A stretch of DNA of 64,000 nt from Mytilinidion resinicola (taxonomy: Eukaryota > Ascomycota > Dothideomycetes > Mytilinidiales > Mytilinidiaceae), in assembly GCF_010093595.1 (NCBI RefSeq), contig NW_022985439.1, positions 2,334,088 through 2,398,087 of the forward strand, written 5' to 3'. Every line of letters starts with the position of its first letter. Positions within the stretch are counted from its first letter, which is position 1. A program made the translations under genes and the position numbers. Shown here one piece after another: positions 4,076 to 61,310 of the stretch. The notes beneath the pieces were generated by a model, which was given only the letters and a program-made list of their open reading frames with translations, was not told the origin of the DNA and ran no database searches.

Positions 4076-6013
4076 ATGTCATATAGCAGCTTTTGCTACC
4101 TTGCTCTCAACCACCATGCTCACGAGATCCGTGTTCTCACTCTTTGGCCAGGCTGTCCAGACGATCCGCTCCAATGTGATCTTTCAACTGCGAGGCTCAC
4201 CACCAGGCCCGTCTTTAATGCGCTTTCTTATGTCTGGGGTGATCCTGTAAACCCAAACGATCCCGACACTGTCATAACTCTCGACGGCTGCAATTTTCCG
4301 GTAACGGCGAGCCTATTTTCCGCTCTACGGCACCTCCGTCCCCCGGTCGGAGGCCATCCATTGCGTCTCTGGGTAGATGCCGTGTGCATCAACCAAGCAG
4401 ACCTAGAAGAGCGGAGTCAGCAAGTTGCTATGATGCGGGATATATATGCATCTGCTGAACGAGTGGTCATATGGCTTGGAGATGAAGATGACGATAGCAA
4501 CGCTGTTTTTGATGCTCTAGGAGACATCGTTGCACCAAGCAGCCATCAATATGACGAGGAGCAAGCAGGGCACAGACAGATGTTGATGCGGCAATGTAGC
4601 GGTGCCTTCTACAGCCTCGCAGATCGTCGTCCGTGGTTCTCGCGCGTGTGGATTCTTCAAGAGCTGGCGATGGCGAAGCAAGATCCGTTGGTGGCGTGCG
4701 GGTGGAAGTCTGTGGCTTGGTCGGTCTTTATCGATGCTTGTAAGATCATTGCCAGAGCTTTGTTCACCGAGATAGGTATGGTCAGGCAAAAGGTGCAAGA
4801 TGGGGGTTATAAGAGACTGGATGGTACTATGCCTGATACTGATGCGAACGATGTAAGTGACGATAATACTGTCAAAGTTCTCGCCAAGTTGAAGATCGAT
4901 GTCCTGGAAGACCTCCACGACGCCGTGCGGACTCGGAACGGGGAAAGTTTGTGGAAACTACTCATAATTTCGAGGACCTCAGAGTCTACCGATCCAAGAG
5001 ATAGAGTCTACGGCCTTCTTGGCCTTCTAGAGCCCGACGCATTAGACCCGCAGAACAGCTTCGTCATCCCGATTGACTACCGGAAACCAACCGCCGCCGT
5101 CTACGCGGATGCCGTGTCCCACATCTTCTCTAGAGGAGAAGGTCCATACTTCCTCTCAGGTGCATTCCTCCCAGGTACTTCTGCGGCTGCTCCTCATATC
5201 AACTCCCTTCCATCAACAATAGCGCAGCCTAGCCTCCCAACTTGGGTTCCTGATCTCTCGCGTCAAGTGGCTGGAAAAGCGACACAGCCTTCCGGCATAC
5301 AATTCCATCCACCAGCGGGTATCAGCGTCTCAGGAGTCGGTACAGATTGTAACAATGGAAGAGTGTTAGAGGACGGTAGAACGCTCCAGGTCGAGGGACT
5401 CCTCGTTGACACGATCGAGCGGGTAATTCCACTTGGGACTTCTTTCGATTCGTTGGTCGAGAAGCTTCCAGATATAGAGTCGCGAGCGGCTGAAGCCAGA
5501 GAGCGACCTTTTCATTTTGGACCCTCTACCGCTGCTCTTATAGAGCAGTTCAAAAGAAAGGAGCCGCTCTGGCGAACCCTGATCTCGAATAAGCGGTTCA
5601 TGTCTGGATACGATGCTGCGCCTTCAACTTACGAAGAAGCTTATCTAAATCTCTTGAATCAGCGAGTATCACCACTTGGCGCCGACCGCAGCGAGGACGA
5701 CGCTCAGGGTAACGAGTATGAACTATGCTTAGAGCGGTGTATTAATAATCGGACATTCTTTCTAACGAAGGGCGGATTCTTTGGCATATGTGTCCCGGAT
5801 AGCCGCGAAGGTGACATTGTTTCCATTATATTTGGGTCACCAGTACCGTTCATACTTCGCCCAGCAGAGAGCGCTGTATCAGTATCTAGTTGCGAACGGG
5901 ATTATCACTTCTTAGTTGGTGCATCCTACGTTAGTGGCATCATGAGTGGCGAGTTAGTGGATGAATTATACTGCGAAGATTTGATGGATTCGACCACTTT
6001 CTTTATCCAGTAG
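4076..6013 (+). CDS. HET domain protein (heterokaryon incompatibility)
   Basis: Single-exon 645-aa protein with a complete HET domain in the first ~210 residues. In order it shows FNALSYVWGDP, LWVDAVCINQADLEER, QQVAMMRDIYASAERVVIWLG, and RPWFSRVWILQELAMAK. Downstream are the regions usual in stand-alone HET proteins: DPRDRVYGLLGLL, LPTWVPDLS, GFFGICVPDSREGD and ASYVSGIMSGEL. HET domains act in allorecognition and programmed cell death; no NACHT or repeat domain is fused here. No lesion is seen, so it is probably functional. A decayed relative lies convergently downstream (6666-8420), and a copy of this gene's last ~45 codons and 3' flank is found at 13283. Confidence 0.92.
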   Translation: MSYSSFCYLALNHHAHEIRVLTLWPGCPDDPLQCDLSTARLTTRPVFNALSYVWGDPVNPNDPDTVITLDGCNFPVTASLFSALRHLRPPVGGHPLRLWVDAVCINQADLEERSQQVAMMRDIYASAERVVIWLGDEDDDSNAVFDALGDIVAPSSHQYDEEQAGHRQMLMRQCSGAFYSLADRRPWFSRVWILQELAMAKQDPLVACGWKSVAWSVFIDACKIIARALFTEIGMVRQKVQDGGYKRLDGTMPDTDANDVSDDNTVKVLAKLKIDVLEDLHDAVRTRNGESLWKLLIISRTSESTDPRDRVYGLLGLLEPDALDPQNSFVIPIDYRKPTAAVYADAVSHIFSRGEGPYFLSGAFLPGTSAAAPHINSLPSTIAQPSLPTWVPDLSRQVAGKATQPSGIQFHPPAGISVSGVGTDCNNGRVLEDGRTLQVEGLLVDTIERVIPLGTSFDSLVEKLPDIESRAAEARERPFHFGPSTAALIEQFKRKEPLWRTLISNKRFMSGYDAAPSTYEEAYLNLLNQRVSPLGADRSEDDAQGNEYELCLERCINNRTFFLTKGGFFGICVPDSREGDIVSIIFGSPVPFILRPAESAVSVSSCERDYHFLVGASYVSGIMSGELVDELYCEDLMDSTTFFIQ

Positions 6014-13796: not shown

Positions 13797-15211
13797 CTAC
13801 TCCAAATCGCGGAAGCACACATATCGTTCCAGCTTGCGAAACTTACGATGCTGCCGTACCCTCACCTCTGCCGCCGCGTTCTTCAGATTAGGAAAGCGCT
13901 TTCCGCCGTCTCGACCTAGGCGCGCCATCGGCTTCCCACTCCTCAGAGGCTCAATCAACAGCAGCTTGTCTAAAAACAGCCGTTGGGCGCAGAGCGTCGC
14001 GATGGAGTCCCAATCGTGGCGGAGACCAAGGACACGACTCGTAAATCCGGTCACAAGACTCGCATATCCAAGAGCGAGGCGACGGAGTATCGGCAACCTA
14101 CGCAGCGCTTCCACCATTTTCTCCCCGTCCATGAGGTCTGCGGTCGTGAAGGAGATGCGCAACTCCTCGAGATTCGCAAGTGATTCCGGAGAATCCGAGA
14201 CCTTGGTTCTCGGGTTGATCATCTGGGCTGCTAGAATGGTACACCAAATGTCTTTCGTCGGCTCCCACGGATCCTCATACGGCTTGGTGTTTGAGACGGC
14301 AAGCTCGAGGACACGGACATTATGGAGGTTTGTGAGAACGTTGCTCAGGTCCGGCGAGTCGACTTCGCCGTAGCTGAAGTTTATCGCCGAGGTATGTAAG
14401 TTGCGGAGCATGCCTGCGAGTGGCTGGACAGGACTAAAGAGGAGTAGGTTGGCATCTAGCAGTGCGTCTTTCTCTGGGTCCTTATTTCCCATGAAAGGAG
14501 TAGTAAAGGTTTCGATCTTCACATTGGCAAGAGCAAGGGCCTTGGCCACCCGGTTCAAAATCGACGGTTTTAAAGTCCATCGGGAGTGCCTTCCTCGTAT
14601 GGCTTGCCCTCGTCCGTGTAGAAGGCTTTGGGAGAGAGCATCGCAGCTCCCGACCAGCCTTTGAGATGGCCTTCAACCGTGCGCACGTAGCGGAGGTGTT
14701 TGAGTTTCGGAAACCGCGCCAGAATCCTCGCTAGATCCTGCTCGAACTCCGTGGTCTCAGGTTGTGGTCGTGCCATATAATACCCCTTCTGGCAACCTCC
14801 AGTAACGTAGAGAAACTGCTCCTCCTGTGCTGCTATATGCGACAAGATATCGGGGTCCTCTGCGTGTACAGCAACTTCTAGCTCGATCCAGTCGATCCGC
14901 TTCCTGAAGGCTTTTCCGAAGATCGTGAGAGTGTCGATCCACATGCAGAGCTCTGGGATTCGTGAAAGGTTCTCCAGCTCTTGTATGCTGGCCCTAGTTG
15001 GGTGGAATGGCGTCTGCCCGATGATCTTGGCGAATGAGCGCCAGGCGGCGAAGCGCCATCCAGAGCCCTGGAGCCGGGCGTTCAAGATGTTTTGGATGGA
15101 TTCGGGGGTGAGGAGATCGATACGCTCATGGGGAGTGTACTCTTCCAGGTTAACTATGACCTGCTCGGCTAATTCGATCGAGAGCTGGAGGCCCTGAGTT
15201 TCTGCCATCAT
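13797..15211 (-). pseudogene. F-box-like family member (copy A), frameshifted
   Basis: Member of a repeated family in this window of unknown function. Its N-terminus resembles an F-box-like module (YTPHERIDLLTPESI, NARLQGSGW, AAWRSFAKIIGQTPFHPTR), and the C-terminal ~250 residues carry irregular leucine-rich segments (LANLEELRISFTTADLMDG, LRRLALGYASL, DKLLLIEPL). It ends RYVCFRDLE. The N-terminal frame (to 14570) stops after EEGTPDGL, and the rest resumes two bases on as KPSILNRVAKALAL. Compared with copies B and C this is one missing T in a short T run, with no room for an intron. It is either a pseudogene or a single-base assembly error. ATG pair at 15206-15211; TATA-like CCTTTATAT (reverse) at 15335-15343. 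Confidence 0.75.
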
Positions 15212-16001
15212 TGGAGACTGGAATTTGACGATGACTGTAGTTTTGACAGATATGGGATTAAGGTGGGGATGGTGGTGGTGGTTGAAAGTGTCTGTGAGTT
15301 GATGAAAAAAGAACGGATGTTGGTGTGAGGCAGGCCTTTATATGCGGCGTATCGATTTCACTACGAGCAAGTCAAGGGGAATCCACGGCAGGAATATTTG
15401 GCGACAGACTGATGCTTTCACCTTCTAGTAAATGATGCCAAAACGAGCGTCCTCTGTCGACGAATAGGCCATGGAGGATCGTACCCAGAACGTTGCTGGC
15501 GGGTAAGACAGTGAACAATGAGCTAGAAACAATCTTACGAGGTCTGCAACAAACGGCATCATTCGCATAAAGCCAGATTATCCAAACATGCTTGCGGTAA
15601 GGGTCATGTTTGCTTACTTCCACTGGCGATGTGCCTACCATGCAAACTTAGCCGCTGTTACAACTCAAAGAAATCCACTCTTCGGCAGAAAGTTTTATCG
15701 TTTTGGAGCCACGGCGAAAATGTGGTAAGTGGTAATCAGCAAAAGTGATAGCTCGGGGAAGGGATTGATTTATGAAACGGTACTAAGAGCTCTGAAAGTT
15801 AGTTCATATTCACAAGTAGTCACTTCACATTATCACGTTTAAGTTGAAAAGGTTTAGGGTATTCAACGCAAATGGTGCGTTGGGTGTATTAGAAAATGTC
15901 TAAAAGCTAACAATCAAGCTAACTTATCAGGAAGAGGAAAATTTGAACCGGATGCGAATTTCGCAGAAAGGGTGACTATGAGATGGGCATGAATCTCACA
16001 C
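15212..16001. other. Intergenic, promoter of copy A
   Basis: Holds the TATA-like site at 15335-15343 (minus strand) upstream of copy A. No coding seen in the remaining ~650 bp. Confidence 0.45.
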
Positions 16002-17435
16002 TTACTCATAGTTACGGAAGCAGAGGTACTTCTGCTGGCCCGTTCTACCAACGAAGTCCGGATCCTGCACCACCTTCACCGCTTCAGCCGCCATTTGCGC
16101 TCTAGGGCCGGGCTCGTGCGGCTTTCCATCCTGGAGCGGCTGAAGCAGCAAGAAATGATCGAGATCTAGCTTCTCGGAGAGTAGTCCGAAGACTGCGTCC
16201 CAGTCCTGTCCATTAACAAGATCGGCGTAACCGATCGCGAGTCGGCGCAGGCGAGGCATCCGCTCCAAGGCCGCCACCATGTCGATTCCATTGACCTTCT
16301 GTGCGGTGTGGAACGAAATACGGAGATCTTCGACGTTCCAAGATTCGGGTACCCCCTGCATCATCCGCCGCCTCCATTCATCCTCTGTCATGAAAGCCAC
16401 ATCGGGCTCACCCAGGAAAAGCTTCCACAACCTTGAGCTACCATTTCCATGCCTAGTATCCGAGATAGCGAGATCGATCTTGCGGACTTTATCGAGGATG
16501 CAGAGGACTTGTTGGAAGTTCCACGGGTACGGGTCCTCGAAAGGGTCGTCAGGGAAGCGGTAATTAACCGCGAACGTGTCGAGGCCGTGCAGCATACCAT
16601 GAAGGGTGCCGAAACTCGGGAAGTTATCCATTTCGGTTATCGGCAGGCCATTGAAAGCGATCCGGTCGGCGGGGTCGTACCGGAAAATTTTCTCGGTCAA
16701 GAAATTGCGCCAGGGCCTCGTTCCGTCTAGGAAAGGGCTCGAGAAGCTCTCAAGCTTGATATTGGCAATCGCGAGCGCTCTGGCGATGTTCTCAAGGATG
16801 GAGTGTGGGTCTAGGGGGGATTGCGCAGACCACCCATCACCCTCGTTGTTGTAGATCCCGGACGGGATCTCGGTCTGGTTTTTTGGGTGTGGCCAGCCCT
16901 TCATATGCACTTCAACATCGCGAACGTACAGGATGTGCTTCAGATTTGGGAAGCGGCGGAAGATCCTCAAGAGATCTGCTTCGAACTCGCAACGAGTCTC
17001 TAATGGGCTAGGGCCAGGGCGGCCAAGACGGCGTGCAGACTCCCTGTAAATCCGCTGCGACTCGAGGCAGTTGCTCAGTCCGTTGCGGGCATCTGGTGAT
17101 CCTTGGAAGGTTGTAGGCTGTGTCTGGAACATCTTACAGCAAATTGTGATGGTCTCGAGATATTTGGCGACCTTCGTCTGAGAAATTTCATCCAGATCAT
17201 GGATGCTGTCGCGGGTAGCGAAGAACGGCGTATTAGCAACAACCTTGGCAAAAGACTTCCAAGCAACGTCATGCCAAGCAGAGGACACTAGACGGGCGTT
17301 CCTAATTGCAAGCATCGACTCCGGGGTCAGGATGTCGATACGTTCGTTTGGCATGTAGTTCTCCATGCCAATGATAATTCCTTCGTACAGCTCCGCGGGG
17401 ATCCATAGCATTTCCTTTCCGTCGGTAGCCGCCAT
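16002..17435 (-). CDS. F-box-like/leucine-rich family protein (copy B, intact)
   Basis: The only uninterrupted member of the six-locus family here, 477 aa, single exon. Start at 17435 (MAATDGKEM) matches the MAxT start of paralogs; upstream codons are leader. The N-terminal ~100 residues form the F-box-like block: IPAELYEGIII, MPNERIDILTPES, IRNARLVSSAW, AWKSFAKVVANTPFFATRDS. The middle has FPNLKHILYVRDVEVHMKGW. The C-terminal half has LRR-like units (VEDLRISFHTAQKVNG, LRRLAIGYADLV, HFLLLQPLQDGKP) and ends KYLCFRNYE. Known F-box proteins of this plan are SCF ubiquitin-ligase adaptors, but a direct F-box match is not certain. The other five loci carry stops, frameshifts or are split. Confidence 0.85.
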   Translation of the reverse strand: MAATDGKEMLWIPAELYEGIIIGMENYMPNERIDILTPESMLAIRNARLVSSAWHDVAWKSFAKVVANTPFFATRDSIHDLDEISQTKVAKYLETITICCKMFQTQPTTFQGSPDARNGLSNCLESQRIYRESARRLGRPGPSPLETRCEFEADLLRIFRRFPNLKHILYVRDVEVHMKGWPHPKNQTEIPSGIYNNEGDGWSAQSPLDPHSILENIARALAIANIKLESFSSPFLDGTRPWRNFLTEKIFRYDPADRIAFNGLPITEMDNFPSFGTLHGMLHGLDTFAVNYRFPDDPFEDPYPWNFQQVLCILDKVRKIDLAISDTRHGNGSSRLWKLFLGEPDVAFMTEDEWRRRMMQGVPESWNVEDLRISFHTAQKVNGIDMVAALERMPRLRRLAIGYADLVNGQDWDAVFGLLSEKLDLDHFLLLQPLQDGKPHEPGPRAQMAAEAVKVVQDPDFVGRTGQQKYLCFRNYE

Positions 17436-26949: not shown

Positions 26950-27650
26950 TTACTCGAACTGTCGGAAGCACCTATACTCCGCCGGCGGCCAAGCAGCCTC
27001 GCGGTTCTGCACTACGCGTACCTTCTTCGCCGCCAATTGCAGATGCGGATAGTGGATCTCGATATCGGGACTATTCCAATCGATCTCCAACGGACAATGA
27101 TCTTCTAGTGGCTCGATTAGGAGCAGCTCATCCAACTCCAGGTAATTGGCGCACCACTCGAAAACCTAATCCCGAGGCATATCTTCATCGAGGTTGCAGT
27201 ATCCCAACGCTAGGCGCCGGAGCTTAGGTAGGGTTATAAGCGCCTTCCCTATCGACTCTCTATCTACGCTGTCGCTAGCGGTAAACGACAGTGAACTCTT
27301 CGAGTTCGGCGAGGGGGGAGGAGCCTGGCTTCTGGGCTTCTAGAATACCCCAGCCGAATTGATCCCAGAAGCTATTTGCGTTTCCAGTGTTGGAGCATGC
27401 GAGCTCCAGGATACGCACCTTATGCAAGCTACCAAGGAGGCGTGCGATGTTGTCGCCTTCGTCAGGCATTGCCTCGAGACTGGCAATCAGAGAGTCGACG
27501 AACCGGAAATTGAGAGCCACAGTCTGCACGGGATGGAGCAGACGGGTTAGCGGCTGATCGATCGAATGAAGGCCTAGGGCAGTGCTGGGCAGAGCATCTC
27601 GGGTTGGGTTGGTGTTTCCCCTGAAAGGACTCGTGAAACTGTCTAACGTC
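26950..27650 (-). pseudogene. F-box-like family gene, C-terminal half (copy D/E split by insertion)
   Basis: Family sequence begins abruptly at TLDSFTSPFRGN next to the inverted repeat at 27651. It runs through VRILELACSNTGN, a frameshift near 27290, FTASDSVDRES, LRRLALGYCNL, an in-frame TAG where a Trp or similar residue is expected (near 27167), DELLLIEPLEDH, and the family ending YRCFRQFE. The N-terminal half is absent here. The complementary piece, ending one codon before this one starts, is at 32438-33093 in the same orientation, so the two are halves of one gene separated by the NLR-carrying segment. Confidence 0.8.
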
Positions 27651-27762
27651 CATCCCTGCGTGCCGAGAATTATGAGGGGTACTTTGACTTCAAGCAACTC
27701 AGAATCTGTGCACACGTTGATATTCACCATAATACTATATAAGTCCTGTACTGTAGCTACTC
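27651..27762 (+). repeat. Left terminal inverted repeat of the NLR element
   Basis: Reads CATCCCTGCGTGCCGAG ... CTTCAAGCAACTC ... CTATATAAGTC ... GCTACTC. It matches the reverse complement of 32310-32437 over its whole length with scattered substitutions, many of them transitions. Confidence 0.75.
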
Positions 27763-28622
27763 ACAATCATCCAGAACCTCACCCACCTAAAAATTACGTT
27801 TGCATCATGGCCTCCACGTCTAATTTGCAAAGAGCCTTGTTTCGTAGCATAACAGTGTTCCTTCACTACAGCGCCACTCCCAAGCTCTTATCGCCTACGA
27901 TATTCGTAAAAGGGTGTTATCCGAGCCTTAGAGCCTCACTATAGTACTGGAATGTCATCAGCAGCCTTGTGTCTGCTGCGGCGTGCTAATTCATGCAGCG
28001 TCGCCACGCCGATCGCTACCTCTAAACGAAGCGATTGCCTATTACAGCTAGTGCAAAACAACTTCGAGCGTCTCACGTAATCATCCTGCTGTAATTTAAT
28101 TACAGTGGCTGTCAGACCCGTGGCTGTGCACAGTCTTGGCAAGCGGGCCGACCTCAGCGCCGAGAATTTGCCACCTCACAACCCTATGGCCAGAGCGGGT
28201 CAGCCGTCCTCCCTGCTAGCGTTATTAAGGCGTTTGTTGGCTCTCAAGACATAAGTATATTCGGTCTGGCCACTCGCAAATTCGCCTTCCGCTCATGTCT
28301 GACTATAGGAGGTAGCAGGTCCGCCTCTCTGCGCCGCCACACTGTGGGCTTAGTAATCCGCCGCACCCTCCAAGCTGAGCTTGCTTTCCCCTTACAAAAT
28401 CGATACTACCACATTCGACTTACAACACACTTACACTGTCTCGCACTCAGATACGTTTCTTGGGTATGGAATCGTAACCTTTCTATCTGTATGCTCGCTA
28501 ACCTCGATAGCTAGGACTGATATGCTGGATGAACGAGCGAGTTGCCCGGCTCGTCTCTTGAGCTAGGTTGCTGCGGTTTGAACCCGGCCGAACTCACCCT
28601 GTGTCCAACCCTATGCGAAATA

Positions 28623-32090
<3,468 letters not shown>

Positions 32091-32189
32091 AGAGTTAACT
32101 TATTATTCTTATTTTCTTTTTTATCTCTATTTCATAGAGGGGCCAGGGATCCAGGTGAATATATAGCTTCCTAATTGGCCACAGTAAAT

Positions 32190-32309
32190 CTTCGAGCATC
32201 TTCTAATCAGCTGCCTTATAGAAACACGTGTTAAAGTTTTGCTATAGCGAAGCTTCGAGCATCTTTCAATCAGCTAACTTATAGAAACAAGTGTTGAAGT
32301 TTTATTTAG
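32190..32309 (+). repeat. 63-bp direct tandem repeat (two copies) next to right TIR
   Basis: CTTCGAGCATCTT begins at 32190 and again at 32253. Both copies continue with AATCAGCT, CTTATAGAAACA and AAGTTTT. It lies between the NLR stop and the right inverted repeat, in subterminal position. Confidence 0.8.
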
Positions 32310-32437
32310 GAGTAGCCACAGCAGACGACTTATATAGAACTGTGGGAAATATTATTAGTGTGTGCATAGAGTTTGAGTTGCTTGAAGTTAATGTACCTAT
32401 TGATTTTCTCGCCACGCAGGGTTTCTACGCAGGGATG
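32310..32437 (-). repeat. Right terminal inverted repeat of the NLR element
   Basis: Inverted counterpart of 27651-27762. Read outward-in it starts CATCCCTGCGTAGAAA, then CCCTGCGTGGCGAG, CTTCAAGCAACTC, CTATATAAGTC and GCTACTC. The 13-bp tip duplication is the main difference from the left copy. Confidence 0.75.
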
Positions 32438-33093
32438 CACCTTAGCTGGATATTGTTCCACAGGAGAACCTCAGCAATATGGTCAAGTATCATCGGTTGA
32501 TAATCTACCGTGCCCTCGTGCGGGTATATACCCTCCGTAGAGGGTTTGTCAGCGGCCGACCAGCCTTTCAGGTGACCTTCGACCATTGGAGCGTATCGAA
32601 GATGCTTCAAATTTGGAAACCGGGGTAGGATTTTGTCAAGGTCCTCCTCAAACTCGGACTCGAGATATGGCACTGGCGAGGCTAAACGATACGCATAGCT
32701 AATCCCGGTAGTGTAAAGCATCTGATCGGTTCGAATTGCTTGATGTTCCTCAAACAGTGAATCTTCTGGGCCCAGACCGGGGTTTTGCTTAAATCCCATG
32801 CCGCAGAACGTTGGCGTACTGATCTAGCGACCAAGGTGCTGAATTTGTGAAATGGCATCTAAGTTCATCATGCTGGCACGTGTTCCAAAGAAAGGAGACT
32901 GTCCTACAACCTTCGCGAACGACTTCGAAGCTGCATAATGCCAGACTGATGATAATCCGCGGGCGTCCTTGATAGCCTGAACCAACGCGGAGGTCAGCAC
33001 ACCTGTACGCTCATTTGGTTCGTACTATTCTATGGAAAGAATTACTTTCTCGACGATTTCCGCCGGAATATGAAGTTCTTGGCTTCTTCTCAT
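32438..33093 (-). pseudogene. F-box-like family gene, N-terminal half (copy D/E split by insertion)
   Basis: Starts MRRSQELHIPAEIVEKV (ATG 33091-33093) and follows the family order: YEPNERTGVLTS, KSFAKVVGQSPFFGTRAS, FCGMGFKQNPG, FEEDLDKILPRFPNLKHL, EGHLKGWSAADK, ILDHIAEVLLWNNIQLR. It stops abruptly at the inverted repeat. TAG codons interrupt it after VILSIE (near 33027) and after QHLGR, the latter at a Trp codon in copy A (TGG to TAG). Its C-terminal complement is 26950-27650. Both halves lie on the minus strand in collinear order, as expected for a single gene split by insertion. Confidence 0.8.
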
Positions 33094-59655: not shown

Positions 59656-61310
59656 CTACCCAAAATTCCCAAAACAAATCGCCCTCGGCGCCCTTCCCGC
59701 TTGAACCTCACTATCGCCTACCACCTGTACCACCTTAGCATCTGTCTTCAACATCCAATAATCGCTTCTCACAGCTTCGTTACCCGAAAGAATTTGTTCA
59801 AAAGTCCAAGTCCATGAGCACCTCTGTTGGCCACAGCTCAGCGGCTCAATCAGATACAGCTCTTCCAGTTTCATTCGGATTCCCAGCTCAGCGAAGAGCT
59901 GCCTCCAATTGATTGGGTAGCCGACGTTCAGATAGGCGAGACCTAGGCGGCGGAGAGTGGGAATATTCACGAGCGCATGGACCAGGCAATCAAGGTGTAT
60001 GACATCCGTGAACGGGAAGCAAAACTTGATTTCTTCGAGACAAGGGAGATTTTCGGAGGTGAATGCGGGCCAGAGCTGATTACATAGGTAGATATAGTTT
60101 GCGTCGACGCCGGAGAAGGCGATATCGAGAGTCCGGAGGTTCTTGAGGCGCTCTAACACACAAGGGAGAGAGCGCATGCGCAGCCAGGTGTGAGGGCGAA
60201 AGCTCCAGTTGATGGAGAGGTGCTTGAGTGACGCAATCGGAAATAACTAGAGGTTGATTAGTTTGTGTATCTGGATCTCGAATTGGTCTATTTGCTCTCT
60301 AGTGTGATCGATCATCTTGCCCGACTCCCCACTACGCGCCGTGAGAGACTTGATCTTTGAGTTCGTATTACCGACCGGAGGTAGCATGAAGGCGTCTGGG
60401 TCTGGTGCTGCGTGCCCTGGGAACAGCCAGTCCAGATTTAGCGTCCTAAGGTCGAATCTAACAATGGTAAAATCTAGGCTCAATTCGTTCAAGGCGTTGC
60501 GATCTGTATCTCGATTGCCCAGGAATGGGGTGGAGAAACTCTCTAGTTGGATTTCTAACTTTCCCAGGACCTTGAAGATGCTGTATAAGACTGACGGTGG
60601 CTGCTTATCGACCTTGAATTCCTCGTCGGTAGCTAGATGCGCCTGTCCGTCTTGATATTCGCTCTCCTCGGTAGAGTAACAGCACTTTGGACGAAAGTGC
60701 TTTGACGCAATCCACTCTTTAATGTGGCCGTTGGTGGCTCGATAGTACCGTAGATGCTTTAGCTTAGCAAAGCGAGGTAGGATTGCCGCGAGGTCTTTCT
60801 CGAAGTCGCATGATATGTGAGTTCGGTTCTGGGCCGTCTTGTATGCGATTTGATCGTTGCGGCACACCTGACGTTCGAGCAGAGGTTCGCGCAGCCAAGG
60901 TGCAACTTATGCAGCGGGACTCGGAGTTTCGCAAACACCATCCCGGAGAACGTCAGAGTTGTGACCCATGTATTTAGCGCGGTGATTTTCGAGAGTCTGG
61001 CAAGGTCGTTCATGCTCGAGCGGGTCGCGAAGAACGTAGTCTGTCCTAGGACCTTCGCGAAAGAACGCCAAGAACAGGCGCAGAACTGCCGAGATAAGAG
61101 GCGAGCGTTCTTGATTTGCTGTATGGATGTGGTGGTGAGGATATCAAACCGCTCGTTCGGCTCAAGGGCTTCCATGCCCTGTAGAATTGCTTCAGTAAGC
61201 TCATCAGGTACATCTTTTAGTCGGGATACTCGGGTCGATCGGTGGTCAACTTCCACGTCCACGGGTTGGCCATCGGCAAAAACTAATGATGTGTTATGCG
61301 GTGTATTCAC
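59656..61310 (-). pseudogene. F-box-like family member (copy F), frameshifted and interrupted
   Basis: Diverged member with an N-terminal extension before the family block: DVPDELTEAILQGME, EPNERFDILTTTS, IKNARLLSRQF, SWRSFAKVLGQTTFFATRSS. After TLTFSGMVFAK the frame is lost near 60890-60910, and the family sequence resumes in another frame (CDFEKDLAAILPRFAKLKHL, ESFSTPFLGNRDTD). An in-frame TAG at 60247-60249 follows KLINL, and the same frame resumes as LFPIASLKHLSINW. It then runs to LRRLGLAYLNVGY, EELYLIEPL and a family-like end (ICFGNFG). No intron of normal size fits the frame change, so it is probably a pseudogene. Confidence 0.65.

Follow-up and report, generated by a model that had tools for sequence, protein, structure and literature searches.

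The window, a 64,000-nucleotide stretch of the Mytilinidion resinicola genome that runs from position 2334088 to 2398087 of contig C3, contains a 4.8 kb element (27646–32442; 4797 nt between flanking TA dinucleotides) that interrupts a gene on the minus strand and carries a receptor gene on the plus strand. Its left terminal inverted repeat (TIR; 27646–27762, plus strand; outer end ACGTCCATCCCTGCGT) is defined by an inverted-repeat and BLAST match and by a family of termini, and its right TIR (32310–32442, minus strand; outer end AGGTGCATCCCTGCGT) by the inverted-repeat match and the TA border. The flanking TAs (27644–27645 and 32443–32444) are the left and right copies of a target-site duplication, as the frame of the interrupted gene closes with a single TA. 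Inward of the left TIR is a subterminal leader, P5 (27763–28620, plus strand), parts of which (70–390 bp, closest to the terminus) are found again at 19 of the 20 loci L009–L028 in a BLAST of window positions 27771–28620. The 3′ region includes two 63-bp tandem copies found by repeat detection (32175–32300, plus strand), and parts of this region are found elsewhere in the genome at 84–94% identity. The only long frames within the element are those of the receptor. MITEs are short non-coding elements, and the window element, with 4.8 kb and a coding gene, is not one of them.

The two TIRs (∼112 bp; 75–79% alike overall) each consist of an arm of 69 nt (27654–27722 and 32353–32421; 77%) and a second of 43 nt (27720–27762 and 32310–32352; 79%) that adjoins the first in register. 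BLAST of one end against the other yields E = 8.5e-16, so the repeats are not due to chance. The ∼110-bp inverted repeats that an earlier note on this DNA placed at 27651–27762 and 32310–32437 are thus real, with borders slightly wider than it had drawn them, at the TA on either side.

The receptor frame, read from the ATG preceding the HET domain (28623–30926, plus strand), encodes HET and NACHT (NPHP3_N) domains. In a scan of 28536–30926, HET (E 1.1e-14) is over the cut-off and is joined by NPHP3_N (6.1e-37) and NACHT (1.6e-16). A tail of WD40-type repeats (31130–32090, plus strand), recognized from the repeat families D1 and D2, open frames, and PF00400 in a public protein, is broken by a run of 338 N (31322–31659). 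The public M. resinicola protein is 100% identical to the receptor frame (98% of the query) and bears PF00400; the nearest protein under another species' name, among the matches listed, is from Cenococcum geophilum (87% identical). Having a HET domain, a NACHT NTPase, and WD40 repeats, the window receptor is of the HNWD (HET-NACHT-WD40) type, the kind of gene that the earlier note had seen bracketed by the repeats.

Flanking the element are the two halves of a single minus-strand gene, identified by comparison with relatives. The N-terminal half (32445–33093) has in-frame stops and is matched from 33093 to 32443, and the C-terminal half (26950–27643) is degenerate, with a frame break, and is matched from 27646 to 27290. 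When the TA is counted once, the flanks fuse into one frame (...NNIQ-LDSFTSPF...). The alignment of the joined protein is free of gaps across the join, both with a neighboring paralog that runs across the insertion point (26326–25331, minus strand; 45% identity; one in-frame stop elsewhere) and with a 431-aa Lophium mytilinum protein (47% identity, 91% coverage). No other protein among the 2785 candidates reaches E ≤ 0.001; the window's own paralogs are unlisted in this search, so its count is not a gauge of how narrow the family is. Three more relatives of the joined protein are in the window, two of them matching in two pieces; in all, five same-strand paralogs including the interrupted gene (14148–17408, 25331–27643/32445–33093, and 60469–61232) are present, several with stops or broken matches.

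The in-frame join and the gap-free alignments to both relatives indicate that the halves belong to one gene and not to different paralogs. Of the residues that the earlier note placed at the join, QLR and TLDSF, the R of QLR belongs to the element. Its description of the interrupted gene as F-box-like holds for the interruption and is weak as a label. LRR-like is the safer term because the joined protein has no Pfam family at E ≤ 1 and the Lophium homolog has only sub-threshold LRR matches, the best being to the LRRs of an F-box protein (E 0.0039). Since the flanks join in frame, the 4.8 kb came as one piece or grew within its own borders, and the TA duplication together with the match of the join to an uninterrupted paralog and to the Lophium protein bears out the proposal that the segment inserted as a unit. 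The comparison is with relatives of the target gene that span the insertion point, rather than with an empty site in another strain. Judged from sequence, the window element is an insertion with TA duplication into an LRR-like gene, and it provides our one firm reconstruction of an empty site.

The ends of the element are termini of a family dispersed across the M. resinicola genome (47.1 Mb, 44 contigs) and not part of a larger local inverted duplication. BLAST searches with the left and the right end scored 40 of 52 and of 60 candidates, respectively, and each end has at least 43 match rows, its own match included. The outer terminus has the consensus TA-ACGTCC(A/G/C)(T/C)CCCT..GT..CG..AAACCC(A/C)C.GTGCCG. 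A 35-place terminus pattern, with three or fewer mismatches allowed, has 93 matches in the genome and its reversed form has 0. To these 93 ends we added the 15 that were new among 17 BLAST-listed termini, the window's own ends among them, for 108 ends, the outer positions of some being extrapolated. Partial BLAST matches lacking an outer end (e.g., C4:295.9k, C11:403.9k, and C27:154.5k) and matches to the 3′ region only were excluded. The 108 ends form 17 adjacent convergent pairs that are 2.0–13.5 kb apart; the earlier note had proposed a search for pairs separated by 3–8 kb.

Sequences of NOD-like receptors (NLRs) are concentrated on the inner side of these ends. With matches to NPHP3_N, NB-ARC, and TPR_12 as markers, 39 of the 108 ends have an NLR marker within 8 kb on the inner side and four have one within that distance on the outer side, compared to a mean of 4.0 and a maximum of 13 in 1000 trials of random placement. 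The searches for HET, DDE_1, and TPR_12 scored part of their candidates, and the resulting counts are lower bounds. An NLR marker (NOD or TPR_12) is inside 10 of the 17 convergent pairs. The other seven include one with a HET match (C13), two with parts of HNWD genes (C28, locus L016, and C31), one with a DDE_1 match (C14), two without NLR (L022 and L029), and one that was not read (C32). Two further pairs, in C20 and C29, were located through transposase matches and are outside the 17-pair test; with them included, these markers are present in 11 of 19 pairs, against an expected 0.44.

Thirteen elements were traced end to end: that of the window, L010, L011, L012, L022, L026, L027, L028, L029, C4 (L034), C20 (L033 + L035 + L036), C29 (L040 + L017), and C30 (L039). 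Four contain N (window, 338; L012, 1085; L027, 10; C20, 1733), and L021 was kept out because its right end is partial. TA is present at both ends in all 13. TA is built into the terminus models, so this outcome is in part a product of the method, and it is the window element that firmly proves duplication. NLR-type genes or remnants are found in 11 of the 13, in diverse architectures. Like the window element with its HET-NACHT gene and WD40-type tail, C20 has HET-NACHT, accompanied by a WD40 piece below cut-off. L011 encodes HET and NB-ARC-TPR, L012 PNP_UDP and NACHT, and L026 has frames for PNP_UDP, NACHT, and ankyrin. L010 has PigL_N and TPR with sub-threshold NB-ARC; C29 has TPR with DUF7779, sub-threshold NB-ARC, and a broken HET-like stretch; and C30 has DUF7779-TPR. 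TPR frames are present in L027 and L028, the latter also with a DUF6601 frame, and C4 retains a TPR fragment. Three partly read units contain HET and DUF7779-TPR (L019), PNP_UDP and NACHT (L023), and SesA (L021). The two whole elements without NLR, L022 and L029, count against reading NLRs as the cargo of the family. L029, with matching ends and long TIRs that are 85% alike, was considered as an autonomous element and set aside, as neither transposase nor NLR was seen in a check made without a Pfam scan.

A second possible empty site is suggested by L012, whose flanks, with a single TA, give a frame that is open over 216 aa and weakly matches SesA across the join (E 9e-5; 23.0 bits, cut-off 26.3). 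We treat it as suggestive because other frames are open there too and the joins of L010, L011, L022, and L026 also give open frames (93–115 aa).

The window copy lacks a transposase of its own, as the earlier note stated: the C20 transposase has no significant match in the window element (best E 0.78) and none in the window at E ≤ 1. The element with the same TIRs and a transposase, for which the earlier note proposed a search, exists in other members of the family. Four elements (C20, C29, C30, and C4) combine, within a single pair of TIRs, a pogo/Fot-type transposase (DDE_1), intact or broken, with NLR sequence. In C20 (8.5 kb; ∼268-bp TIRs, 78% alike), transposase frames (DDE_1 1.4e-32; HTH 0.014, below cut-off) adjoin a frame with HET (1.3e-13) and NACHT (NPHP3_N 1.8e-35). 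In tblastn, relatives of this transposase turn up between the two termini of C29 (9.2 kb), of C30 (6.1 kb), where the gene is decayed, and of C4 (5.4 kb), where an N-terminal fragment is left; relatives are also beside one end in L030 and L024. In L024, HTH_Tnp_Tc5 and DDE_1 are both over cut-off. The extrapolated start of the transposase is 428–547 bp from the end and reads inward in C29, C30, C4, and L030. The transposase in C20 is oriented opposite to these, which counts against the explanation we favor. An inner inverted pair around the receptor of C29 counts against reading that element as a single unit, since C29 could consist of a transposase unit with a smaller NLR unit next to it. A 0.44-kb foldback (joined L040 + L017, 4805–5246; 95-bp arms, 97% alike) is situated between the C29 transposase and receptor.

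Starting at the first base of the terminus, the leader in front of the transposase is also found at one end of NLR elements without a detected transposase (L026, 451 bp, 87%; L011, 448 bp, 76%; L027, 463 bp, 72%; L028, 136 bp, 78%), as well as at one end of the NLR-free L022 (479 bp, 91%). NLR-only and transposase-bearing units therefore represent one family. Relatives of the transposase number 1781 proteins at E ≤ 0.001, and several fungal genera are named among the 120 listed. Within M. resinicola, we compared a clade of 28 loci (merged from 31 rows at a cut of 46% identity chosen after the hits were seen, further rows at the same loci being left out) to 101 lower-identity pogo-type rows (two left out, and rows unmerged into loci). 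An NLR marker is within 8 kb of 11 of the 28 clade loci versus seven of the 101 control rows (Fisher p 9e-5). A listed terminus is within 4 kb of only six of the 28 versus seven of 101 (p 0.035), which counts against the favored explanation; C20 is among the 22 clade loci without a listed terminus, and its termini were found later.

Other transposons and candidate units were seen around these genes. The DDE_1 gene of L009 was rejected as a family transposase, as it is in a nested Fot-type transposon (L009:1937–3787) with separate TIRs, perfect over 50 bp, and a transposase frame open for 576 aa. This transposon is just inside a family end and, like the family, starts with TA-ACGT. A 576-aa frame at C29:3803 scores equal to that of L009. 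A Tc1-type element (HTH_Tnp_Tc3_2) is inside a family member at L024:1718–3079, and, by eye, a frame from position 5161 of the C20 element (joined L033 + L035) resembles it. At C22:367600–376600 (L037, L032, and L038), a HET and NB-ARC frame with TPR matches adjoins a clade transposase, and inverted 117-bp arms surround the receptor. This region was left out of the whole elements, as it has no termini recognized by the terminus models.

At the level of sequence, three features are established: insertion, with TA duplication, of a TIR unit with NLR cargo; a family-wide association of such termini with NLRs; and co-residence of NLR sequence with a pogo-type transposase in four units. We are confident, short of certainty, that the window segment belongs to a family of DNA transposons in M. 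resinicola that are of pogo/Fot type (Tc1-mariner group), are specific for TA, and have members with NLR cargo, and we call the segment non-autonomous because its sequence has no transposase match. The window copy may have derived from a fuller element that lost its transposase segment. Fuller members would supply the transposase, which would bind the shared termini and mobilize the NLR-only deletion derivatives in trans through a cut-and-paste process. Every insertion would then found a new dispersed receptor locus, with an empty TA site as its null allele. We also lean, by a little, toward a broader reading in which a pogo-type lineage adopted NLRs as resident cargo, with transposase and receptor in one TIR unit. 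Receptor domains (NACHT and NB-ARC; HET, PNP_UDP, and SesA/PigL_N; WD40, TPR, and ankyrin) would have been exchanged or re-captured within it, and transposition would seed allorecognition loci that have the empty site as null allele.

Other readings can be set against these data. The TIRs could be ordinary MITE-like elements that land in pairs near receptor-rich, repeat-rich regions, so that the receptor is not cargo, and some regions are indeed one-ended (e.g., L018, with ordinary-enzyme-like frames near), while the L022 and L029 pairs enclose no NLR. But local richness predicts no bias of markers toward the inner side of ends such as the 39 versus four observed, and NLR-type sequence in 11 of 13 whole elements, together with window flanks whose in-frame join requires that the 4.8 kb came whole or grew inside its borders, makes this reading very improbable. 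Inheritance of promoter and 3′ sequences within a duplicated receptor family, by segmental duplication and without transposition, is the least probable of the readings weighed. The P5 leader is 5′ of several receptor genes (L011, L019, and that of the window) and a promoter role is possible, but the same ends border unrelated architectures (NACHT, NB-ARC/TPR, PNP_UDP-NACHT-ankyrin, and PigL_N), in L026 and L028 the long end is located 3′ of the receptor frames, and similarity between loci ends at the terminus in the rows read. For the window copy, the TA duplication at a disrupted gene refutes this account.

A different objection accepts the TIR family and its NLR genes and assigns mobilization to another transposase, the pogo-type gene in the four elements being a nested passenger. 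Nested transposons are common here, as L009 illustrates, and most loci of the transposase clade are without a listed terminus. Yet in C20, C30, C4, and L030 the transposase is not enclosed by an inverted pair (E ≤ 0.01) of its own; the transposase is at a similar distance from the end and in the same orientation in four loci; and the leader in front of it is common, from the terminus inward, to NLR elements that lack it. We consider a passenger origin unlikely and favor mobilization by the pogo-type transposase.

Typical pogo/Fot elements are ∼2 kb and have only a transposase. The M. resinicola family resembles the fungal pogo/Fot1 elements of the Tc1-mariner group in its TA target duplication, TIRs, DDE_1 transposase, and, in some members, Tc5-type HTH, and is unlike typical elements in that its NLR-bearing units are 4.8–9.2 kb. 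Comparison also extends to Starships, reportedly the subject of work by Gluck-Thaler in 2022 as told in citing papers, and to Pack-TIRs, which hold captured copies of many unrelated genes. Starships are giant fungal transposons of up to ∼700 kb with a DUF3435 tyrosine recombinase and many genes, NLRs being among their cargo (PMC12134995, PMC9594970). Starships and the M. resinicola family are alike as fungal mobile DNA bearing NLR/HET genes and differ in that the latter has one receptor in a small DDE/TIR element with TA duplication; with 4.8 kb, the window element is too small to be a Starship. Pack-TIR and Pack-MULE are likewise gene-carrying TIR elements (PMC8277862), from which the M. resinicola family differs by its strong bias to NLR genes. 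Fungal DNA transposons that encode a TET/JBP dioxygenase (PMC12730594) similarly have a host-type gene alongside the transposase, with other cargo. The HNWD genes het-d, het-e, and het-r of Podospora anserina share with the window receptor the HET-NACHT-WD40 architecture, a multi-copy family, and repeated WD40 units (PMC1805685, PMC2873952, PMC12222747). The words "inverted" and "flank" are absent from these three texts, and the one link to a transposon shown there is a relic in front of the pseudogene NWDp3. By analogy of domains, the window receptor would act like Podospora HNWD proteins, with WD40 sensing and HET-driven cell death, and may have a role in non-self recognition.

NLRs as Starship cargo and fungal DNA transposons with a TET/JBP gene are already in print. 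Among the best literature matches, which cover few subscription papers, no title or abstract reports NLRs as the cargo of a small TIR family in fungi. The M. resinicola family appears to have carried receptor genes to many chromosomal sites and suggests a route by which receptors spread: a family of small transposons that target TA, are present in many copies, and have NLRs as cargo is a concrete means of dispersal. It would explain why unrelated NLR architectures have the same flanks and predicts clean presence/absence polymorphism of incompatibility loci at TA sites. If NLRs are resident cargo, some of the NLRs of fungi would make up a family of mobile elements and not just one of genes.

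The termini themselves have further features. Comparison of termini gave no sign of recent movement, the TIR arms of the window element being 75–79% alike and the closest terminal segments between loci 86–94% alike among the 45 rows listed. A 251-bp stretch beside the L024 transposase frame (L024:3841–4090) is 99.6% identical to L022:311–561, which is outside the L022 element, and points to recent copying of something there. Tandem termini at L024:1391 and 1444 are arranged as though an element of the family had landed at the terminus of a second one. TATATAA, TATATAG, or TATATAT is present in 16 of 21 aligned termini, and the TIR might therefore act as a promoter of the cargo.
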